Source of the DNA: Gammaproteobacteria bacterium
Lineage (GTDB): Bacteria > Pseudomonadota > Gammaproteobacteria > GCA-001735895
Reading direction: 5' to 3'
NCBI GenBank assembly: GCA_030066085.1
Contig: JASJCI010000027.1
Span: 1 to 58,605, forward strand
Length of the DNA: 58,605 nt
In this document: in pieces, positions 14,446 to 26,500 of the stretch
Position numbering within the stretch: the first letter of the stretch is position 1
How the letters are laid out: the number at the start of each line of letters is the position of its first letter
The notes under the pieces: model-generated
Told to the model about the DNA's origin: nothing
What the model saw: only the letters and a program-made list of their open reading frames with translations
Database searches by the model: none
Position numbers and translations under genes: made by a program

Positions 14446-16704
14446 TCAACCGCCGCCGTAGCGGGCGAGCCAGGCGCGGACCTGCGGGTTGTTGGCGGCG
14501 AAAGGCTCGAGTACCGACAGGTACCTGCGAATGCCGTCGGTTTTCGCGCTTTTGTCCATGTACGCGACCTGCAGGAAGGACAGGTCGAGCTGGTTGGGCC
14601 AGCGCCGGCTCGCCGCGTCGATGACCTCTATCGCCTTGCCGGTTTGCCCCAGCGAATCGAGCGCAACCGCGTACACGTAGACGTGGTGCGGACTCGCATC
14701 GACCTGCCGCGTCGCCGCTTCGAGGTAACCGAGCGCCTCCTCACGTTGACCCGCGCGCACGAGGTAAAGCCCGTAGGCGTGGTTGCTGCTGGCGCTGTTG
14801 GGGGCAACCTCGAGCGCGCGCAACAGCAAGTCGAGCCCCTCGCGGTCGGCGCCGATGCCGCGATACAGGTCGGCGAGATTGAGCAGTGCCGGCACGAACT
14901 CGGGCTCGATCTCGAGCGCGGCCTTGAACGCCCGTTCGGCCAGGATCGGGTAGCCCGATTGCAGTTCCAGGTTGCCGATCGCGAGCTGGCCCGCGGGCGA
15001 ATCGGCGTGGTAGGCGAGGGCGGCGCGCAGCTCGTCGAGCAAACGCTGCAGGCGCTCGCCATCCTTGCCGCTCACCTGCGGCAGCGCGTCGACAAGCGCA
15101 ATCGCGACCGCGTGACGCACCGTCTGCAGCGGATCGTCGATCAGCGGCTGCAGCAATCGCCAGCGCAGCTCCAGCGGCGCCGCCTGCAGCAGTTCGACGG
15201 CGGCGCGGCGCAACAGCGGGTCGGGGTTCGACAACTGCGCCGCCGCCCGCTCGTACGCGAGCGGCGACTGGAACGCGCCGATCTTGCCGAGCAGACTGGC
15301 CGCGCGGATCGGTGCGAGGCCGGCAGGGGGGTTACGCAGGTAGTCGAGGAAAACCTGCGAATCCTGCAGCGCCAGGCCGTGATTGATCGTTGCCCAGCGA
15401 TTGCCGCGTTCGCCGATGCCCCAGGCGCGCAGGTTTTCGGCGGCCCAGGCAGGCGTGTCATCGGTATGGCATTGATTGCAGGCGTTGGGCGCTCCTGTTT
15501 TCTCCGAAAAAGCCGGGTCGGGAATCGGGAAGCTGTGATCGCGGCGCGGATCGACCGTCATGTAGACCCGCTCGGGCATGTGGCAGGCGACGCAGGCGGC
15601 GCCCGCGGAGCCGGGTTCGTGGTGGTGGTGTTTTGGATTGTCGAAAACCGTTGGTAAATGGCACTGCGCACAGAGCGCGTTACCCTCGGCAATCGTTTTG
15701 CCGGAATGCGGGTCGTGGCAATTGGCGCAGGTAACGCCGCGCTGTGCCATCCTGCTCTGCAGGAAAGAGCCCAGCACGAATACCTCGTCGTCGATTTGCC
15801 CGTCGCTGAAATACAGCCCGGGCTCGATCGATGCCAGGCGGTAATGATCGTGAAACGTGAGCAGGGGAACCGGATGGCCGCTGGTCGAGCGGCGCGAATG
15901 ACATGCGCCGCAGGTATCGACGTAGGCGTCGTTACCCTCGCCGGAGGGTGAGGCAATTGCACTGCCCTCGGCGAAGGTCCAGCGCAGGCGCGCTGCCGGC
16001 TTGGCGGCGAAGCCGGAATCCGTCTCGCCCAGGCTGCCGTTTTGCGCCAGTTCGAGGTGGCGCGAGGCCGGTCCGTGGCAAGCTTCGCAACCGACCCCGG
16101 GTTCGGACCAGCTGCTGCGGTAGCCGCTGGTCGCGGGGTCGAAACCCTTTTCGTAGTCGGTGGCGTGACACTCGATGCAGCGACTGTTCGCGTTTTGCAG
16201 GTGGCGCGTCCAGAAAAACGGGTGATCGGGATTTATGTCCTCGTCCGCCTGCAGGTGATACCAGCGCTGCCCGCCCTGGTCGGCGGGGCGACTGTCCCAG
16301 GCGATGTTGAGCGCCTGCAGGTGGCCATTGCCGATGTCGACCAGGTACTGCTGCAGCGGGTAGTGGCCGAAGGTGTAGGCAATCGGGTAGTCGCGGGTCT
16401 CGCCGCCAGCGCCCGCGGTTTCGGCGCGATATTCCTCGCCCGCGCGGTAAAGGCGCGTCCCGATACCGTGGAAACTCAGCTCGACGTCATCGAAGTCGCC
16501 CAGCACCGTGGTCGCGGAAGGGGCCTGCATTGCGCGCGCGTGATCCGACCGTTGCCAGGCGTCGTGGATGTCCCGGTGGCAGTCGCGGCAGCTGTCGGAA
16601 CCGGTGAATACTGCGGCCGATCCCGCATCCGGGTGGAACGCGACAAGGACGAGGGCGAGCATCAGCGGTTGAATGAGGAAACCAGCCTTGCCGAGCGATG
16701 ACAT
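14446..16704 (-). CDS. Octahaem c-type cytochrome with TPR tail
   Basis: 752 residues from ATG 16704, preferred over an upstream TTG (16731). Residues here are counted from that TTG, nine more than from the ATG. An N-terminal signal peptide is followed by eight CXXCH haem-binding motifs at about residues 48, 185, 215, 274, 335, 354, 380 and 418, with the spacing CRDCH, CIECH, CEACH, CGACH, CANCH, CAQCH, CVACH, CNQCH. A VPLLTFHDHYRLA segment and a His cluster (NPKHHHHEPG) lie in the haem region. From residue 430 to the end there are HEAT-like and then TPR-like helical repeats (ALEIEPEFVPALLNLADLYRG). This fusion of a cytochrome c554/octahaem-like module and TPRs recurs in uncultured proteobacteria and planctomycetes, with no tested function. 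It should be periplasmic. Confidence 0.88.
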   Translation of the reverse strand: MSSLGKAGFLIQPLMLALVLVAFHPDAGSAAVFTGSDSCRDCHRDIHDAWQRSDHARAMQAPSATTVLGDFDDVELSFHGIGTRLYRAGEEYRAETAGAGGETRDYPIAYTFGHYPLQQYLVDIGNGHLQALNIAWDSRPADQGGQRWYHLQADEDINPDHPFFWTRHLQNANSRCIECHATDYEKGFDPATSGYRSSWSEPGVGCEACHGPASRHLELAQNGSLGETDSGFAAKPAARLRWTFAEGSAIASPSGEGNDAYVDTCGACHSRRSTSGHPVPLLTFHDHYRLASIEPGLYFSDGQIDDEVFVLGSFLQSRMAQRGVTCANCHDPHSGKTIAEGNALCAQCHLPTVFDNPKHHHHEPGSAGAACVACHMPERVYMTVDPRRDHSFPIPDPAFSEKTGAPNACNQCHTDDTPAWAAENLRAWGIGERGNRWATINHGLALQDSQVFLDYLRNPPAGLAPIRAASLLGKIGAFQSPLAYERAAAQLSNPDPLLRRAAVELLQAAPLELRWRLLQPLIDDPLQTVRHAVAIALVDALPQVSGKDGERLQRLLDELRAALAYHADSPAGQLAIGNLELQSGYPILAERAFKAALEIEPEFVPALLNLADLYRGIGADREGLDLLLRALEVAPNSASSNHAYGLYLVRAGQREEALGYLEAATRQVDASPHHVYVYAVALDSLGQTGKAIEVIDAASRRWPNQLDLSFLQVAYMDKSAKTDGIRRYLSVLEPFAANNPQVRAWLARYGGG

Positions 16705-16772
16705 TTGACCTGCGGGTAAGACCGATAGCAAACTGACCGCTGCTAGTGTGCCACAGGGGTGTGGAAGCCGGA

Positions 16773-17162
16773 ATGAAAAAGTGGTTGTTCGCGATCTGGG
16801 TCGGCTTGTGCGCTTCCTGCGCGTCGACGGGTGAATTCGGCAGGGCGGAATATACCTACGACGAAATCCGCGTGCTCAACAAATCCCGCCAGGTGTTACC
16901 CGATTTCAGCGTCCGGGTGCCGGCGACCGGCGCCCAGTTCAGCTGCGGCAACATCGCGCCGCAGGGGCTGTGTTCGAACAGTTTCAGCCAGCGTCGCTAC
17001 CGCTACAACCCGATTCGCATCGAGTGGTCGTACGGTACCCGCAGCCGCCAGACCGACGATTTTGTCGTGCAGGTGCCGGACGATTTCACCACCGAGCGGC
17101 CGCTCAAGGGCGTGATCGAAATCAATACCGGCGGACGCGTGCGGGCCTATTTCGTGCAATAG
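16773..17162 (+). CDS. Small lipoprotein (copy 1 of a within-window pair)
   Basis: 129 residues from ATG 16773 (MKKWLF). The signal WLFAIWVGLCASCAST has a lipobox-like ASC, so it is probably lipidated. The mature part has YDEIRVLNKSRQVLPDFSVRV, a pair of cysteines (FSCGNIAPQGLCSNSF), RRYRYNPIRIEWSYG, and a C-terminal LKGVIEINTGGRVRAYF. The same plan (YNEVQVVNLSGGIINDVSLRV; CEEVLKNAMCDERF; RRYPQLGIELAWTH; LRIVMEVNEDGSVKSFY) is found in the protein at 24236-24664, so these are paralogues. Likely outer-membrane or periplasmic lipoproteins of unknown function. Divergent from the cytochrome gene with 68 bases between, which should contain both promoters. Confidence 0.75.
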   Translation: MKKWLFAIWVGLCASCASTGEFGRAEYTYDEIRVLNKSRQVLPDFSVRVPATGAQFSCGNIAPQGLCSNSFSQRRYRYNPIRIEWSYGTRSRQTDDFVVQVPDDFTTERPLKGVIEINTGGRVRAYFVQ

Positions 17163-19166: not shown

Positions 19167-19703
19167 ATGCGAGTTTTTGCTGCTATTGCTATTGCACTGC
19201 CCCTGTTTATCGTGGGCTGTGCGACGGGGATTCCCGTGCAAATGGATTACGATCCGGCCCAGGATTTTTCCAGCTTTCGGAAATACACCTGGCATGACCA
19301 GGTGGTTGCGCCGGATCAGCTGGTTGCGGCGCGTATTCGCAACGCGATCGAAGAAGGCCTCGCGGCGCGGGGTTACACCAGGGTAGGGTCGACCGACGAC
19401 GCGGATTTCAGGGTAAGCTTTACCGCGGTGGCGGAGCAGGCACTCGATTTCGATTCAGTATCGGCCGGCATGGGCTACCGCGGTCGCGGCTGGGGTGCCG
19501 GGATTCCGTCGACCACCCGGGTGCGCGAGTACACCCGCGGCACCCTCGTCGTCGACGTGATTGATGCCTCCGGCAAAAACCTGCTGTGGCGCGGCAGCAG
19601 CGCGCGCAAGCTGTTGCAGGATCGCAGCGTCGAGGATAAAGACCGCGATGTCAGGGAGATCGTGAGCGCGATCCTGCGGGAGTTTCCGCCGCTGGCGGAG
19701 TAA
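19167..19703 (+). CDS. DUF4136-type lipoprotein (copy 2)
   Basis: 178 residues from ATG 19167 with GGAG upstream. Lipobox IVGCATG (Cys 18). The DUF4136 plan is complete: DYDPAQDFSSFRKYTWHD, RIRNAIEEGLAARGYTR, DADFRVSFTAVAEQ, then a glycine/arginine-rich loop (GMGYRGRGWGAGIPS), REYTRGTLVVDVIDASGKNLLWRG, and a C-terminal helix to REFPPLAE. The neighbour at 19898 is a close paralogue with the same blocks (RKYTRGTIIVDVIDP; EQFPPRPE), so the pair arose by tandem duplication. The copy at 4713 is more distant. Function unknown; outer-membrane inner-leaflet location expected from the lipobox (Ala-Thr at +2/+3, no Asp). Confidence 0.88.
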   Translation: MRVFAAIAIALPLFIVGCATGIPVQMDYDPAQDFSSFRKYTWHDQVVAPDQLVAARIRNAIEEGLAARGYTRVGSTDDADFRVSFTAVAEQALDFDSVSAGMGYRGRGWGAGIPSTTRVREYTRGTLVVDVIDASGKNLLWRGSSARKLLQDRSVEDKDRDVREIVSAILREFPPLAE

Positions 19704-19897: not shown

Positions 19898-20464
19898 ATG
19901 TCTTTTTCTCCAGTGTTATCGTTTCGGCGCCAGGGCCGATTCCTGCTGCTCGTCGTATTGCTGGTTCTGGCGGGTTGTGCCAGCAACATCGAGCTCGAGT
20001 TCGGGCATGATCCCGAGCGGAATTTCTCGAACTTCCAGACCTACGCCTGGTACGACCGGACCAGTGCCCCCAACCAGGTCGCCTATAACCGCATTCGCAA
20101 AGCCGTGGATATCGTCCTGTACAAAAAGGGATTTCGCTACGCCGAGGTGGATCGGGAGCCGGATTTTCGCGTCGGTTTCACCGCGGTGGGGGAAGCCGCC
20201 CTGCCGGCGGACGAAGTGTCCGCGCGCATGGACTACGGTAACGATACCTGGCGTCCTCCGGTTGACCCGAACATACCCCCGCGCAAATACACCCGGGGCA
20301 CGATTATCGTCGACGTCATCGACCCGGTCGAAGGAGAACTGTTGTGGCGGGGGGTCGGCAGTCGATCGCTCGACGAGGGCCTGCGCTCACAGAGCCTCAA
20401 GGAAGAGTACGTGCTGGAGACGGTGCGCGCGATCCTCGAGCAGTTTCCGCCGCGCCCGGAGTAG
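19898..20464 (+). CDS. DUF4136-type lipoprotein (copy 3)
   Basis: 188 residues from ATG 19898; the ribosome site is weak. Lipobox VLAGCAS after a long basic/hydrophobic signal (FRRQGRFLLLVVLLVLAG). Matches the neighbour block for block: HDPERNFSNFQTYAWYD, NRIRKAVDIVLYKKGFRY, EPDFRVGFTAVGEAAL, RKYTRGTIIVDVIDP, LLWRGVGSRSLDEG, EQFPPRPE. Compared with copy 2 it lacks the Gly/Arg-rich loop and has a proline-rich one (WRPPVDPNIPPR). The 194-bp gap after copy 2 holds no other gene. Last gene of the same-strand envelope run. Confidence 0.87.
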   Translation: MSFSPVLSFRRQGRFLLLVVLLVLAGCASNIELEFGHDPERNFSNFQTYAWYDRTSAPNQVAYNRIRKAVDIVLYKKGFRYAEVDREPDFRVGFTAVGEAALPADEVSARMDYGNDTWRPPVDPNIPPRKYTRGTIIVDVIDPVEGELLWRGVGSRSLDEGLRSQSLKEEYVLETVRAILEQFPPRPE

Positions 20465-20627: not shown

Positions 20628-21575
20628 CTAGTGCAGGCGCGTCGAGGGTGCCGACAATGAAGTCAAATCCCGGTCGAATCGGTGCTCGATGCTTTCGTAG
20701 CTGAGACGGGTCCAGTAATGCCGATGCTGGTAGATTTCACGCACCAGCGCGTGCATGAGGTCCGCGGTCGGGCGGTTTGCGAACACGTGGCCGAAGATCG
20801 GATCGCCGGCGAGTGCCAGGATGCCGTAGCTTTCGAGCAGCCGGTAGCGTGCCGGTTCGTCGTCGAAGCGCAGGCGCGCCTGTCGCGGCAAAACGCTGGA
20901 GTCGATCGCCCGCGGTTCGCTTTGCGGGCCCATGGGCGCACCGATGCCGGTGGCATCGATGCCGGCGCCGAACAGCGCCGGATTGCGGGCGGGCGCGATA
21001 TCGCGCGCGAACACGTGATCGACCATTTCCCGTGAAACGCATTGCGATTCGAACAGCGGGTGAGCGGGCTCGAGGTTGACCGTGATGCGTGGCAGATCGG
21101 CCGGGTTTACCATGGCGTAGCTGTCGCCCCGCCGGACCTCGATCGTGCGTTCGATCCAGATCGCCGGTCGCGAAAGATTTTGCGGCGCCACGCCGGCGCG
21201 GTTGATCAGCGCCACCAGCGGCGCGGCGCTGCCGTCGAACTCGGGCAGGCCGCTGCCCCCGGTCTCGATGATCAGGTTGTCGATACCGCAGCCGCGCACC
21301 GCTGCCATGACCAGTTCGACCCGGTTGACCGGGATGCCGGCATCGTTGACCAGCATCGTGCCGAACTCGGTGGGAATCGCGTTACGCCAGCTGGCCCTGA
21401 TCAGTGCACGCTGCGGTTCGATGTCGCTGCGCCGGAAACTGATGCCGCTCCCGGGCTCCGCCGGCAGCAGCGTCAGGCTGGGTTCGTTCGCGCCGCGCCT
21501 TGCCGTCCCGGGGTAATGTACCGGCTCGCGCAACGTGCAGTGGTATCTGCTGATCGTGGTACTGGAGAATATCAA
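20628..21575 (-). CDS. Divergent LpxC homologue lacking the metal site (probable pseudoenzyme)
   Basis: 315 residues, apparent TTG start at 21575 with GACGGAG upstream. LpxC deacetylates UDP-3-O-acyl-GlcNAc in lipid A synthesis using Zn2+. Similarity is clear: PSLTLLPAEPGSGISFRRSDIEP, FGTMLVNDAGIPVNRVELVMAA, GIDNLIIETGGSGLPEFDGSAAPLV (split), RLRFDDEPARYRLLESYG, FGHVFANRPTADL. Against E. coli LpxC, the general-base Glu is kept (E87), but Zn ligand His79 becomes Leu88, ligand His238 becomes Tyr244, ligand Asp242 becomes Glu248 and catalytic His265 becomes Thr270. The protein therefore should not catalyse deacetylation. No frameshift is present and the frame is intact, so it seems retained for another role. 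It is divergent from the AraC regulator at 21683. Confidence 0.8.
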   Translation of the reverse strand: MIFSSTTISRYHCTLREPVHYPGTARRGANEPSLTLLPAEPGSGISFRRSDIEPQRALIRASWRNAIPTEFGTMLVNDAGIPVNRVELVMAAVRGCGIDNLIIETGGSGLPEFDGSAAPLVALINRAGVAPQNLSRPAIWIERTIEVRRGDSYAMVNPADLPRITVNLEPAHPLFESQCVSREMVDHVFARDIAPARNPALFGAGIDATGIGAPMGPQSEPRAIDSSVLPRQARLRFDDEPARYRLLESYGILALAGDPIFGHVFANRPTADLMHALVREIYQHRHYWTRLSYESIEHRFDRDLTSLSAPSTRLH

Positions 21576-21682
21576 GTCCGAAACTCCGTCGAAAACTGTT
21601 GCGGAATTATCGGTTTGCTTGGGACAATGGGTTAATCTGCCGACGCCAATCGGTTATCCCGTTGCCGCAATTCTGAGCCGTT

Positions 21683-22699
21683 ATGCCCGTTGCTAATCAT
21701 TTCTCGGTTATATCCTCGTCGGTGCTGATGATCGCCAGGGCGATCGATTCGTACGGTGAAGACAGCAACGAACTCTTTCGCCGCGCCGGGCTCGACCCCG
21801 AGCGTCTGCGGCAGCCGCTGGCGCGCTACTCGCATCCATCGATCCAGACCCTGTGGCAGATCGCGGTCGAGGCTACCGGCGATCCCTGTTTCGGCCTGCG
21901 CGTGGCCAGTTTCTGGCATCCGACCACGTTCCATGCGCTCGGTTACTCCTGGCTTGCGAGCCGCAATCTCGAGGAAGCCTTCGAACGCCTCGTACGGTAT
22001 TCGAGCCTGGTCAATACCGCTGCGCGAGGCGCGCTTCACTTCGAGCGCATGCAACAGGCGTTCTGCTTTTACGCCAGCATCGATCACGTCGAGCCGAAGC
22101 CGAGGCCGGCGGCGATGGATGCCGGCCTCGCGTCGATCCTGGTTATGTGCCGCGCGGCCTACGGCAGCCGCTTTCGCCCGCAGCGAGTCACCATGCTGCA
22201 CGCCGATCCGGGCTGCCCCGACCAGTTTGCCGAGCTGTACAAGGCGCCGGTCGAGTTTGCGCGCGAACGCTACGCGATGTACATCGATCCGGAAATTGCG
22301 CTCGAACCGCTGGTTACCGCCAATCCCGAACTGGTGCGCGTCAACGACCAGATCGTCACTGATTACCTCGCCAGCCTCGATCACAGCGATGTCGTCATGC
22401 GGGTGCGTTCGGAGCTGATCGAGCGTCTGCCGAGCGGTCATCTCGACGAGGGCGACATCGCTGCCTCGATCAACCTGAGCCGGCGCAGCCTGCAGCGCAA
22501 ACTCAAGCAGCAGGGCGTGTCCTTCTCCGGCCTGCTCGACAGCTCACGACGTGAACTCGGCCTGCAGTACGTGCGCGACTCGCGGCATTCGCTCAACGAA
22601 ATCGCCTACCTGCTGGGCTTTTCCGAGCCGGGTAACTTTACCCGCGCGTTCAAGCGCTGGTACGGCAAGGCTCCGAGCCAGTATCGCGACCAGGCCTGA
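21683..22699 (+). CDS. AraC-family transcriptional regulator
   Basis: 338 residues from ATG 21683. Residues 1-200 form the 'arabinose-binding-like' N-terminal domain (GLDPERLRQPLARYSHPSIQTLW; LGYSWLASRNLEEAFERLVRY), and the C-terminal 100 residues the double helix-turn-helix: DIAASINLSRRSLQRKLKQQG and LNEIAYLLGFSEPGNFTRAFKRW, both canonical. Regulators of this OruR/ArgR-type subgroup usually control a neighbouring catabolic or lipid gene. The nearest gene is the LpxC-like one, 107 bases away and divergent, so it is the likely target along with autoregulation. The truncated relative at 143-592 shows that the family has other members in this genome. Confidence 0.9.
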   Translation: MPVANHFSVISSSVLMIARAIDSYGEDSNELFRRAGLDPERLRQPLARYSHPSIQTLWQIAVEATGDPCFGLRVASFWHPTTFHALGYSWLASRNLEEAFERLVRYSSLVNTAARGALHFERMQQAFCFYASIDHVEPKPRPAAMDAGLASILVMCRAAYGSRFRPQRVTMLHADPGCPDQFAELYKAPVEFARERYAMYIDPEIALEPLVTANPELVRVNDQIVTDYLASLDHSDVVMRVRSELIERLPSGHLDEGDIAASINLSRRSLQRKLKQQGVSFSGLLDSSRRELGLQYVRDSRHSLNEIAYLLGFSEPGNFTRAFKRWYGKAPSQYRDQA

Positions 22700-23206
22700 T
22701 CCGCCCGGGCATCGCGCCCAGGGTAAAGTCCGTCTTTGAAGTTTGCATGCGGGTCGAAAAAGGCAAGCAACACCATCGCCACCAAATACAGCGGGACTTC
22801 GGCGATGTACTACTCGGGAACGTATTGCCTGCCTTAACTGGATTCGAGGTCAGCCTCTGCGTGTTTCGCTCACGTATCCGGGTCATGCCGGAATGCGTGT
22901 TCGAGGCTCACCTCGCATGTCTTTTCGAACTGCTGTGATTTTAGTTGTTAATTGAAACTTGCGGTAATCCCGGCGCGCCAATCACTTGTCCCGGTAAGGA
23001 TGTTTCCCCTGCTTGCGGTCGTCGAACTATCGGCTCGGTCGACGACAATTACCGCGATTGGGTCGACAAAGGACGCGACAGACCAGCGTAGGCACGCTGG
23101 CGGTAGCTCCTGTCGGGCCTGCCGACTCGAATTCAGCACGCGCCGTCGCGCGCCTGCGAAAAATGGACGTGTTGCGTTCCGGTTTTTCCCTGCCCAGGCG
23201 CGAAGG
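22700..23206. other. Intergenic with possible gene fragments
   Basis: No intact gene. On the minus strand, about 22700-22800 reads IAEVPLYLVAMVLLAFFDPH then ANFKDGLYPGRDARADQ, with a hydrophobic stretch and protein-like composition, preceded by an in-frame stop; a second minus-strand stretch near 22950-23000 ends SDWRAGITASFN, like an outer-membrane protein tail. These may be decayed ends of lost genes. Evidence is only composition. Confidence 0.3.
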
Positions 23207-23809
23207 CTAGAACGACAGGCCGAGCGTGATCATGCCGGCGGAAAGGCCGAGCTGCACGAACTCGGCATTGAAGCCCTTGTACTGGTAGCCGATGCTCGGG
23301 ATGACCGCGGGCGCGATACCGAACTCGTTGAACGGGATCTTGTCTTCGTAGGGTTCCTTGTAGCCATGCAGCATTCCGCCGGTGATCTTGTAATACCAGC
23401 GGTCCGATTCGAAGGCGCGGTACTTGCGGCCGAGGTAAGCATACTGCGATTCCTGGCCGAAGGAGTTATCGAACATCGCGAAGCCCCACAGGTACCGGTT
23501 TTGGAAGTGGGTTTCGTAGCCGAGCAGGTTCTGATCGTTGTTGTGGTCCGGTTCCGGGTCGTAGTGCCGCGTCAGCAGGGAACTGTAGAAGCTGCGGTGG
23601 TCGACCTCGGAATCCGTGAGCGGCTGCAGCCAGGACATGCCGTCGGCAGCCCTGGCGCAGGAAAAAGCGGCGAGCAACGCGAGCGCAAACGCAAACAACT
23701 GGAGCAGGCGACAATACCTGCCGGTTAAAGTCTGGGCGCTGGTACCTGCGGTGGATGCGGCGCGCGTTACGGCTCTGCCCGGACCGTGCTGCTGCCTGCT
23801 GCCTGCCAT
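23207..23809 (-). CDS. Predicted outer-membrane protein, small beta-barrel
   Basis: 200 residues from ATG 23809 (GAGG upstream; the frame also extends to a TTG at 23866). A long signal peptide (LQLFAFALALLAAFSCARA) is followed by a sequence of aromatic-rich amphipathic strands: HRSFYSSLLTRHYDPEPDHNN, LLGYETHFQNRYLWGFAMFDNS, QYAYLGRKYRAF, RWYYKITGGMLHGYKEPYEDK, FGIAPAVIPSIGYQYKGF and the terminal AGMITLGLSF. The final Phe and alternating pattern are the BamA-recognised end of an outer-membrane barrel. Homologues are often labelled 'sn-glycerol-3-phosphate transporter' in databases without support; a PagP-sized eight-strand barrel is more consistent. Role unknown. Confidence 0.65.
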   Translation of the reverse strand: MAGSRQQHGPGRAVTRAASTAGTSAQTLTGRYCRLLQLFAFALALLAAFSCARAADGMSWLQPLTDSEVDHRSFYSSLLTRHYDPEPDHNNDQNLLGYETHFQNRYLWGFAMFDNSFGQESQYAYLGRKYRAFESDRWYYKITGGMLHGYKEPYEDKIPFNEFGIAPAVIPSIGYQYKGFNAEFVQLGLSAGMITLGLSF

Positions 23810-24235
23810 GTCTGCTTGCCTCGCGGAATGATAAACCTTGCACAGAGCATAGGCCGAGCAGGCCAAAGGGGTTAATCCGACGGCGCCAAAGGCTTATCCG
23901 GCAGGAATGTGTGCTGGCGGCTTCATTCGGCGGGCCTGTCGGCGTGGCAAAATAGCCGGCACGCGGCCTCGAGGTCAGCCGATGCAGGGAAAACCTGCAG
24001 GTAGAGCCTCGGGTCGAGCAGCCTCTATTGGTGGCGACGGACCTGTGCCGCCAGCGATTCCCGCAAAAGCCGACAGCTGCGGTGAGGTTTTTGCCGCGGG
24101 GCTTTTTGGCCATGCCGCTGCGAGGATAACCAGCCCGGGACTTGCCGGGTGGGCCGGCGAAACCAAAACCCGTCCGGGCTGTCCAAGCACTGGTGATCCC
24201 CGGGGAGGCGGGACGCGTACCACGATAGCAAACCG
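23810..24235. other. Intergenic, no gene seen
   Basis: Divergent promoters for the barrel gene and the lipoprotein gene should lie here. The open frames on both strands are rich in Arg, Pro and Gly with no family resemblance. No riboswitch or RNA gene was recognised; several GC hairpins (for example around CCCGGGACTTGCCGGG) are not followed by T runs. Confidence 0.4.
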
Positions 24236-24664
24236 ATGGATTCGAAAATCATGAACAAGCTTTTCCTGCTACCCCTGAGCATGCTGTTGACCGCCTGCAT
24301 CAGCAGCTACAACCCGTCCTACTATTACAACGAAGTCCAGGTAGTCAACCTGAGCGGCGGTATCATCAATGACGTCAGTCTGCGTGTCGTCGATTCCAGG
24401 TCGTTGGCCTGTGAAGAAGTGCTAAAGAACGCGATGTGCGACGAACGTTTCGGCAAGCGCCGCTACCCGCAGCTCGGCATCGAGCTGGCGTGGACGCATC
24501 CCGGTGGCGAGCGCCGGGCGGATAGTTTCAGCCCGTCGATCCCGGCTTATTACTCCACCAGCTTTCCGTTGCGGATCGTGATGGAAGTCAACGAGGACGG
24601 CAGCGTGAAATCGTTCTACGAACAGGAAGAACCCGGCCGCGACGGCATCTTCGACATGAACTAG
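24236..24664 (+). CDS. Small lipoprotein (copy 2 of a within-window pair)
   Basis: 142 residues from ATG 24236; an in-frame ATG at 24251 is equally possible and neither has a clear ribosome site. Signal KLFLLPLSMLLTACIS carries lipobox LTAC. The body parallels the 16773 protein: YYNEVQVVNLSGGIINDVSLRV, CEEVLKNAMCDERFGKRRYPQLG, SFPLRIVMEVNEDGSVKSFY, ending in an acidic tail EEPGRDGIFDMN that the other copy lacks. The two cysteines in the mature part are conserved between copies. Envelope lipoprotein of unknown role, transcribed on its own. Confidence 0.72.
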   Translation: MDSKIMNKLFLLPLSMLLTACISSYNPSYYYNEVQVVNLSGGIINDVSLRVVDSRSLACEEVLKNAMCDERFGKRRYPQLGIELAWTHPGGERRADSFSPSIPAYYSTSFPLRIVMEVNEDGSVKSFYEQEEPGRDGIFDMN

Positions 24665-24798: not shown

Positions 24799-25659
24799 AT
24801 GTCCGAACCCAGCCAGCAGCGTATCGACCAGTTCGCCGATCTCGCGCGTTACATCGCCGACCACGCCGACGAATCCCTGCCACTGACCCGCCTGGCCGCG
24901 CGTGTGCACCTGTCGCCGTCGCGCATGCAGCGCGTGTTCAAATCGATCTTCGGCATTACGCCGAAGAAATTTCAACAGGCGGCGCGCAGCGCCAGGTTCC
25001 GGCAGCTGTTGCGCGCGGGTTCGGATGTCACCGCCGCGATCCACGAGGCTGGCTACGGCTCGACCAGTCGGCTGTACGAGAATGCCGCGCACAACATCGG
25101 CATGACGCCGAAGGCTTATCGCGCGGGTGGCGCGGGCGAGACCATCACCTGGGCCTGCCGCGAAACCGTGCTCGGCCCGCTGCTGATGGCCGCCACCGAC
25201 CGCGGCGTCTGCTTCGCCCAGTTCGGTGACGCTTGCGATCGACTTCGGCAACAGTTACGCGACGAGTTTCCAGGCGCCGAGATCCTGGCTTACGACGGCC
25301 GCGACGGGCACGAACTCGACCGCTGGATCGACGCGCTCGATGCCTATATGCAAAATCGGCAGCCGCGCCCGGACCTGCCGCTGGATCTGCGCGGTACCGC
25401 GTTCCAGGTCAGGGTATGGGAATTCCTGCTGTCGTTGCAGGATGGCGATGTCGCCAGCTACGCCGAGGTGGCCGCGGGTATCGAGCGCCCCGGCGCGGCC
25501 CGCGCCGCGGCATCGGCGATCGGGCGCAACCGCATCGCGGTGCTGGTGCCCTGCCACCGTATCCTGCGCGGCGACGGCGGCATCGGCGGCTACCGCTGGG
25601 GTGTCGAGCGCAAGCGCGCGCTGCTCGACGCCGAGCGTGCGCGCAAGGCCCGCGGTTGA
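24799..25659 (+). CDS. Ada-like AraC/methylated-DNA methyltransferase fusion
   Basis: 286 residues from ATG 24799. Residues 8-108 are an AraC-type double helix-turn-helix (LPLTRLAARVHLSPSRMQRVFK; VTAAIHEAGYGSTSRLYENA), and residues 115-280 an O6-alkylguanine-DNA alkyltransferase with the active-site PCHR at 251-254 (acceptor Cys252), the arginine-finger helix GAARAAASAIGRNRIAVLV and the RGDGGIGGYRWG tail. The N-terminal zinc-Cys domain of E. coli Ada (Cys38) is absent, so methyl-phosphotriester sensing is not expected; the protein may both repair O6-alkylguanine and regulate through that Cys. Proteins of this two-domain type are common. The last codons lie inside a 272-bp tandem duplication. 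Confidence 0.9.
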   Translation: MSEPSQQRIDQFADLARYIADHADESLPLTRLAARVHLSPSRMQRVFKSIFGITPKKFQQAARSARFRQLLRAGSDVTAAIHEAGYGSTSRLYENAAHNIGMTPKAYRAGGAGETITWACRETVLGPLLMAATDRGVCFAQFGDACDRLRQQLRDEFPGAEILAYDGRDGHELDRWIDALDAYMQNRQPRPDLPLDLRGTAFQVRVWEFLLSLQDGDVASYAEVAAGIERPGAARAAASAIGRNRIAVLVPCHRILRGDGGIGGYRWGVERKRALLDAERARKARG

Positions 25660-26175
25660 GTTCACCCTGCACCCTGCTCGCACCGTGAAGTCGCCAACTA
25701 GAAAGCGGTCACGGTTCGGAGAATTACTTTCAAAAGTCACCCCGCGGCTTGACCGCGGGATCCAGTTGTAAGTCCAGAGGCTCTGGATACCGCGGTCAAG
25801 CCGCGGTACGACAAGCCTTTCTTGGTTGCCGAGGAACGACTCTCGTAAGAGGGCTTGTGGCTGACCGGCTTCGCTCCGGCCGCACATCGTCATCCCGCAT
25901 CGGCGGACCGCCGCGCAAGGCCCGCGGTTGAGTTCACCCTGCACCCTGCTCGCACCGTCAAGTCGCCAACTAGATAGCGGTCACGGTTCGTAGAATTACT
26001 TTCAAAAGTCACCCCGCGGCTTGACCGCGGGGTCCAGTTGTAAGTCCAGGGGCTCTGGATACCGCGGTCAAGCCGCGGTACGACAAGCCTTTTTTGGTTT
26101 CCGAGGAACGACTCTCGTAAGAGGGCATGTGGCTGACCGGCTTCGCTACGACCGCGCATCGTCATCCCGCATCGG
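25641..26175. repeat. Tandem duplication of 272 bp including the end of the ada-like gene
   Basis: Copy 1 begins with GCGCAAGGCCCGCGGTTGAG at 25641 (the last codons of the ada-like gene) and copy 2 with the same bases at 25913. The shared text continues through GTTCACCCTGCACCCTGCTC, GCGGTCACGGTTCG, an inverted pair CCGCGGCTTGACCGCGG / CCGCGGTCAAGCCGCGG, and GACTCTCGTAAGAGGGC. Only scattered single-base differences separate the copies, so the duplication is recent. The inverted pair is the GC-rich repeat family of the window. Confidence 0.85.
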
Positions 26176-26500
26176 CGGACCGCCACGACCGCCGGGATCT
26201 CCCCGGGCAGACGCTCCGGCCGCACATCGTCATCCCGCGTCGGCGGTCCGCCGCGCAAGCGGGAATCTCCGGACCATGGCGCCATTACAAGATCCCCGAT
26301 TGCGCGGGGATGACGATGGGGCCGGGGGCGGCGACTGTAGGGCGTCCGCATGACGATGGGGCCGGGGGCGACTGTAGGGCGTCCGCATGACGACGGGGCA
26401 GGGGGAGGATGACAACGCTGCGCTCTTGGGACCTTCGGGTCCGCAATGACGGCCGGGCCGCGCGGATGGCGGGGCAGGGCGCGGGAACGACGGGTGCGTA
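26176..26500. repeat. GC-rich intergenic repeat block C
   Basis: Further copies of the second family follow the duplication: CATCGTCATCCCGC with GGCGGTCCGCC near 26160-26260, CGCAAGCGGGAATCTCC, TTGCGCGGGGATGACGATGG, and a short tandem repeat of about 35 bases (ATGACGATGGGGCCGGGGGC, GACTGTAGGGCGTCCGC) twice between 26315 and 26390. No gene seen before the AEC carrier at 26523. Confidence 0.7.

Follow-up and report, generated by a model that had tools for sequence, protein, structure and literature searches.

A predicted LpxC pseudoenzyme in a putative AraC-controlled lipid A regulon of a gammaproteobacterium

The contig JASJCI010000027.1 of a gammaproteobacterium (assembly GCA_030066085.1), whose whole length of 58,605 nt was analysed and is called the window here, carries a homologue of lpxC that has lost both zinc-binding histidines and lies divergent from an araC gene. 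Our reading, to which a probability of about 45% is given, is that this dead LpxC came from an intact paralogue, lpxC2, is under selection, belongs to a small lipid A regulon run by the AraC-family regulator, and acts by protein contact. LpxC catalyses the committed step of lipopolysaccharide (LPS) synthesis and is an antibiotic target. Co-regulation of a dead copy with intact lpxC2 and a pagP-type gene points to a possible control of LPS synthesis through protein contacts, and the shared operator renders the idea directly testable. Neither a pseudo-LpxC nor an lpxC paralogue under an adjoining araC gene was found in a mostly title-level survey of the open-access literature or in passages of PMC11946689 and PMC11448272.

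LpxC homologue of the window

20628–21575, minus strand: LpxC homologue of 315 residues with a TTG start, predicted to be inactive; E78 kept, with H79L, H238Y, D242E, H265A and T191N

The frame is uninterrupted over its 315 residues and belongs to the Pfam LpxC family (PF03331), with 154.9 bits against a cut-off of 27 and a match from position 3 to position 267 of the 268 in the profile. Against NCBIfam TIGR00325 (lpxC) it reached 123.1 bits, below the equivalog cut-off of 187.25. Residues 14–295 match solved LpxC structures in sequence, and a structure model built from 38 sequences, with a mean predicted local distance difference test score (pLDDT) of 85, had the LpxC fold (Z of 35.5 and root-mean-square deviation of 2.2 over 269 residues against an LpxC structure). 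The Pfam score and the modelled fold thus bear out the intact 315-residue LpxC homologue reported in a preliminary description of the window.

Alignment to E. coli K-12 LpxC, whose residue numbers serve as the ruler here, placed L88, Y244 and E248 of the window protein at the zinc ligands H79, H238 and D242, and E87 and Ala271 at the catalytic pair E78 and H265. These assignments agree with the preliminary description with the exception of H265, which had been put one residue off at Thr270, a residue that aligns with Gly264. The loss of every metal ligand, as then stated, holds for the two histidines but not fully for D242, which became Glu, itself a possible metal ligand. Further active-site changes are T191N, F192P, F161P, K143S, K239R and D246I. 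No metal ligands at shifted positions were evident in the alignments by eye, no program search having been made. Compared with the LpxC deacetylase (PF03331, TIGR00325), the window protein is homologous over its whole length and has the same modelled fold, but it lacks the zinc histidines, carries D242E, H265A and T191N, has an eroded insert II, and is an extra copy beside intact LpxC. On these residues, the protein is very probably a catalytically dead LpxC, i.e. a pseudoenzyme.

Intact and dead lpxC copies in related genomes

Three lpxC genes are present in the host genome: the window copy, a canonical lpxC (G000:C11) with intact catalytic residues and secA about 1 kb downstream, and a paralogue (G000:C67:26355–27248), also with intact catalytic residues, which is 42% identical to the window protein and has among its neighbours a PLD-domain protein and a metallo-beta-lactamase-fold protein. 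The label lpxC2 is used for this paralogue without any claim of orthology. The preliminary description had made the pseudoenzyme idea depend on a canonical LpxC elsewhere in the genome, and two genes (C11 and C67) answer to this. A paralogous lpxC2 region described in certain Bacillota likewise holds a second, isolated lpxC away from the main LPS genes, but it belongs to another phylum, and the passages available from that paper (PMC11448272) mention neither a lost active site nor AraC nor pagP.

The comparison set comprised 41 genomes of the family, including 31 from the same genus. Six full-length homologues with altered active-site residues, called dead copies here, were found in five of the 31 genus genomes, namely the host, G028, G017, G012 (two copies) and G022; G012 also contains one dead fragment at a contig end (C686). 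Intact lpxC2 genes of this clade were found in four of the 31 (G000, G004, G012 and G018). A pattern-based scan across 84,980 species (one genome each, best 80 loci retained), from which the window's own genome may be left out, recovered four of the five dead-copy genomes along with many intact LpxC proteins. Genes resembling lpxC2 occur in seven of the 369 genomes of a class sample, and the six besides the host have full-length copies with the residues intact.

The residues E78, H79, H238, D242 and H265 are all present in 88 of 102 aligned LpxC rows. Of the 14 rows that fall short, six are the dead copies, six are fragments or broken frames (L044, L045, L047, the first copy of L056, L126 and L127) and two are wrong-strand misreadings (L012 and L014). 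A first LpxC hidden Markov model, with about half of its seed loci taken from the wrong strand, served for detection alone and was followed by a corrected seed. All 14 intact paralogues keep the five residues. In the dead copies, H238 is replaced by Y or N and D242 by E in six of six, H79 and H265 are each lost in four and kept in two, and E78 is kept in five and is Asp in the sixth. The recurrence of four substitutions envisaged in the preliminary description is therefore complete at H238 and D242 and partial, at 4/6 each, for H79 and H265.

In an LpxC tree obtained by a quick rather than an exhaustive search, the six dead copies form one clade within the lpxC2 group of the genus when all columns are used (Shimodaira-Hasegawa-like approximate likelihood ratio test, SH-aLRT, 99). 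Support falls to 76/76 without the pocket and insert II columns, and in the AraC tree the window-type regulators group with the regulators of intact lpxC2, leaving the G012 type outside (SH-aLRT 90). The dead type may have arisen once or twice.

Some further lpxC loci were observed in the course of these comparisons. A second, distant divergent araC-lpxC pair at G026:C266 (L161:10357–12448) groups with Agaribacterium haliotis (L091), outside the lpxC2 clade. A shortened and altered lpxC copy on the minus strand at L056:1246–1926, in a genome of another family, has an araC gene about 0.8 kb away. The canonical lpxC of G017:C289 (L045:4744–5662) is split over two frames in a metagenome assembly, perhaps by assembly error. 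Near-identical LpxC proteins in Anaerolineae and Alphaproteobacteria bins (L068 and L069), and an Inquilinus-like LpxC under the record name Mycobacterium sp. KBS0706 (L088), are likely misbinned or mislabelled.

AraC regulator and its putative operator

21683–22699, plus strand: AraC-family regulator of 338 residues with a sensor domain (PF12625) and HTH_18, transcribed divergently from the dead lpxC
21633–21659, minus strand: putative operator, 0 mismatches, 58 bp upstream of the start codon of lpxC and 24 bp upstream of that of araC
23873–23899, minus strand: putative operator, exact match, 64 bp upstream of the ATG (23809) of the PagP-type gene; outside the set that defined the pattern
22965–22991, minus strand: operator-like site, 1 mismatch, no clear gene behind it

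The AraC protein matches PF12625 with 129.8 bits (cut-off 27.6) and HTH_18 with 68.6 bits (cut-off 33.6), and 107 bp separate the start codons of araC and the dead lpxC. AraC homologues also adjoin the dead copies of G028, G017, G012:C161 and G012:C40 (cut by the contig edge) and the fragment G012:C686, as well as the intact lpxC2 of G018 and G004 and lpxC2-like genes of other families; in G012 (L036), an intact and a dead copy stand on either side of a single araC. The G022 contig ends 445 bp upstream of the dead frame, and no araC is visible on that stretch. None was found within the 19.9 kb examined around the host lpxC2 (C67), nor near G012:C534. In a comparison of frames of at least 90 residues across 25 loci of 8–36 kb each, no partner other than lpxC, araC and their shadow frames was common to more than four loci.

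A 27-bp pattern, GGATA-N5-TTGGCG-N6-GATTA, lies upstream of both dead and intact genes and contains two GGATWA-like half-sites 21 bp apart, a direct repeat of the layout typical of AraC-type sites. The host genome has 15 places with up to two mismatches (reversed control: four), and the three exact ones precede the dead lpxC, lpxC2 (C67) and the gene at 23207–23809 by 58, 66 and 64 bp, respectively. Eighteen further genomes were searched. Eight of them have this AraC or an lpxC2 or dead lpxC (G025 has the AraC alone, and G026 the AraC and a remnant lpxC), and 11 exact matches are found in seven of the eight (none in G022); the ten genomes that have none of these genes contain no exact match. 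Five of the 11 lie before the remnant lpxC of G026, before the PagP-type homologue of G028, at a contig end of G017, where the DNA downstream resembles the G028 site by eye, and at two places in G025. In seven genomes of other families there is one exact match, before the lpxC2 of G253, and there are four with one mismatch, one before the lpxC2 of G104, one in G088, which by eye is close to a tRNA-like stretch, and two in G217.

A weight matrix made from 12 lpxC-type sites gave 34–37 at the three window sites, 34 before an lpxC2 of another family (L056) and 20–27 before lpxC2 in L060, L061, L063 and L067. Scores of 12–13 (L043 and L066) were no better than stray ones (L048, 12.0; L078, 13.5), the maximum in four canonical lpxC loci was 12, and no score of 10 or more was found in L047, L062, L065, L070 and L071. 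The site at 22965–22991 shares 94% identity over 31 nt with the one upstream of the G022 dead lpxC and is possibly the relic promoter of a lost lpxC-type gene; a one-mismatch operator at G026:C59 resembles it in the operator alone.

The shared operator and co-inheritance are strong indications that the AraC regulator is tied to the dead lpxC, in agreement with the preliminary description, and the regulator presumably binds this operator. Since one operator precedes the dead lpxC, lpxC2 and the PagP-type gene, and lies next to araC, the three genes probably form a lipid A regulon under AraC. PMC12052159 and PMC4310594 report that MarA activates lpxC through a class II site and that RamA activates lpxC, respectively, and these are likewise AraC-family activators of lipid A genes including lpxC. 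They are described as MarA-like and act on the canonical lpxC within wide regulons (PMC12052159, PMC4310594), whereas the window system has a PF12625-type regulator adjoining an lpxC paralogue, and its putative targets include a dead copy and a pagP-type gene.

PagP-type gene

23207–23809, minus strand: PagP-type protein of 200 residues from the ATG at 23809; the frame is open up to a TTG at 23866

The encoded protein shares 52% identity over 125 residues with a P. aeruginosa protein annotated as palmitoyltransferase PagP, a match obtained by tblastn against plasmid sequences, the comparison being with this entry rather than with PA1343. PA1343 is the pagP of P. aeruginosa, transferring palmitate to lipid A, in passages of PMC7916210, and bears the same name in the part seen of PMC13265386. 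No relative was found in Pfam or NCBIfam (E < 0.01) or the PDB. This PagP-type protein and nine homologues had no Pfam match, and hence none to the enterobacterial PagP family PF07017, at E values up to 1, and hhalign against E. coli PagP was not significant (E 0.21). A single-sequence structure model had a pLDDT of 44. H82 and N115–S116 are invariant across ten aligned PagP-type rows. Matches to this protein occur in 2/41 family and 13/369 class genomes, the host being counted in both. The operator precedes the homologue in G028 too and is absent at all 12 PagP-type genes of other families (weight matrix maximum 4.6 nearby).

By its similarity to the annotated protein, the product may transfer palmitate to lipid A. 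Its gene would be controlled through the AraC operator, whereas the passages seen of PMC7916210 describe PhoP-PhoQ control for pagP of P. aeruginosa. The host genome also encodes, at G000:C46:111995–112312 (L231), a protein that belongs weakly to the classical PagP family, PF07017 (33.9 bits).

Selection on the dead copies

All six full-length dead copies have open frames. The ratio of nonsynonymous to synonymous substitution rates (dN/dS) between the copies of G028 and G017 was 0.21 (YN00) or 0.22 (NG86), and three pairs of the G012/G022 subgroup gave 0.20, 0.20 and 0.25 (NG86, with dS > 1), one pair giving 0.09 by YN00. Three of four intact lpxC2 pairs gave 0.09–0.13, the fourth pair and the canonical pairs being saturated. 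In neutral simulations run to the distance between the window copy and that of G028, the open frame survived in 1 of 2000. Frames that have stayed open through long divergence, dN/dS values under 1 and the intact LpxC elsewhere in the genome support a retained pseudoenzyme, as the preliminary description had it.

Mean pairwise identity among the dead copies was 0.24 at 28 pocket sites against 0.51 elsewhere, while the intact paralogues gave 0.82 against 0.64 (n = 6) or 0.78 against 0.58 (n = 14), with a bias towards this result in that three of the sites (19, 264 and 268) were picked after the residues had been aligned. The test was repeated with 18 sites named in passages of PMC10254716. These gave 0.26 against 0.49 in the dead copies, with a difference as large in 27 of 5000 shuffles, and 0.75 against 0.59 in the fourteen intact copies (152 of 5000). 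Over residues 21–120, conservation among the dead copies comes close to that among the six intact ones in four of five 20-residue blocks. Because identity at the pocket is lower than elsewhere in dead copies and higher in intact ones, the pocket has been released in the dead copies while much of the remainder has been held.

Several observations weigh against our reading. The window copy is the most diverged dead copy (branch length 1.65), and its dN/dS was 0.38–0.42 with G028 and 0.40 with G017 (dS > 1), where that of its AraC with G028 was 0.20; constraint on the window copy is therefore weaker than on its group. Decay is seen at related loci: in G026:C263 (L162:10993–11225) an exact operator and the first lpxC2-type codons are followed by a break, with an intact araC adjoining, and G253, of another family, has a truncated extra lpxC copy beside a full-length one. 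Of the five genomes that carry a dead copy, three are without a visible lpxC2, two of these three being 66–71% complete. With the 18 pocket sites, the contrast is weaker in the six intact copies (0.79 against 0.65; 369 of 5000 shuffles). As to the operator, six of the 11 exact matches elsewhere and two of the three in the host are to be expected because the pattern was built from lpxC promoters, the ten genomes without the module hold five one-mismatch matches (in four of the ten), and the two exact matches of G025 (C18 and C141; L210:6456–6482 and L211:6842–6868) have no recognised gene downstream.

The foremost rival explanation is slow decay, by which a functionless lpxC2 duplicate would be drifting to loss with an operator inherited from its parent. 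The long branch and the dN/dS of about 0.4 of the window copy favour it, as do the G026 remnant, the truncated G253 copy and the orphan operator at 22965. It is nonetheless unlikely, chiefly because of the open frames in six of six full-length copies, the survival of the frame in only 1 of 2000 neutral simulations, the dN/dS of about 0.2 within two subgroups, and the contrast between the pocket and a remainder conserved near the intact level in four of five blocks over residues 21–120; the conservation of the operator at dead copies also argues against it. Decay keeps its place as a rival mainly for the window copy.

Possible modes of action

In the regulon proposed here, an envelope signal would cause AraC to switch on the dead lpxC, lpxC2 and the PagP-type gene together. 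LpxC2 would increase flux through the committed step of LPS synthesis, the PagP-type enzyme would place palmitate on lipid A, and the dead LpxC would act by protein contact via its kept scaffold, which is the least certain step. The likeliest form of such contact, though at rather less than even odds, is a decoy role, in which the dead LpxC would occupy LpxC-handling proteins such as the LapB-FtsH adaptor route and thereby spare the active LpxC. In the fuller scheme, which is rather unlikely, the AraC regulon would reshape lipid A by co-inducing a second LpxC and a PagP-type palmitoyltransferase along with a pseudo-LpxC that, as a substrate mimic, titrates the machinery of LpxC degradation or inhibition and is thus a pseudoenzyme anti-adaptor at the committed step. 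A search for the LapB family (PF18073) matched 9 of 9 genomes but also 10 of 14 controls, B. subtilis among them, so that the match is unspecific, a further point on the negative side.

A known parallel is YejM, the E. coli anti-adaptor of LapB-FtsH, a membrane protein that is no homologue of LpxC. Passages of PMC13333357 describe how LapB recruits LpxC to FtsH and inhibits LpxC, how YejM occupies LapB and in this way spares LpxC, much like the proposed decoy, and how protein contacts control LPS synthesis in the recently reported cases of LapB and MurA. A decoy that mimics the substrate of the route would be a different way to the same end.

Contact of another kind is envisaged if the dead LpxC is a heteromeric partner that binds LpxC2, canonical LpxC or an enzyme such as MurA and tunes its activity. 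Dead and intact copies flank one araC in G012 (L036), and the dead copy and lpxC2 have a common operator in the host genome, both of which would suit such a partner, but LpxC is generally described as a monomer, and no lpxC2 is seen in three of the five dead-copy genomes, two of them incomplete as noted above. Stimulation of LpxC by MurA in P. aeruginosa, described in the part seen of PMC13333357, lends the idea some support; on balance it is improbable, ranking second among the rivals.

A new enzyme, with another reaction or with another metal or ligand in the old pocket, is very improbable. The retention of E78 in five of six dead copies (Asp in the sixth) and the change of D242 to Glu, able to ligate metal, in all six would fit it, but the pocket varies between the dead subgroups (L, I, H or P at H79; A, H, S, T or R at H265; I, D or F at D246), its identity is 0.24–0.26, and D242E is the sole change that is both fixed in the six and absent from the intact proteins compared.

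The preliminary description had proposed that the protein may bind UDP-acyl-GlcNAc or acyl chains as a sensor, a decoy or a regulator of LpxC stability, and had looked to structure prediction for a kept acyl tunnel. In the model, however, residues 204–229, within the insert II region that houses the tunnel, have pLDDT below 50, and 16 alignment columns of this region are empty in three of the six dead copies. Substrate or acyl-chain sensing was rejected as scarcely credible, despite the kept overall fold and a residue K262 that is K in three of six dead copies and R in the window protein, because the pocket is the less conserved part of the dead copies, the UDP, hexose and acyl-tunnel residues named in passages of PMC10254716 are mostly changed (K143, the D160–F162 region, K239 and insert II), and insert II is of low pLDDT or partly missing.

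Other features of the window

Beside the dead lpxC, two neighbouring DUF4136 (PF13590) proteins, which apparently arose by tandem duplication, are encoded on the plus strand at 19167–19703 and 19898–20464. Two small proteins without a Pfam match (16746–17162 and 24236–24664, both plus strand) are related to each other or linked through homologues, which in L035, L038 and L039 occur close to lpxC-type genes. At 25640–26183, a tandem unit of 272 nt (96% identical) contains 24-nt inverted repeats, and more short repeats extend to 26484. A multihaem cytochrome c protein with TPR repeats is encoded at 14446–16731 on the minus strand, and similar frames are present in L035, L039 and L056.

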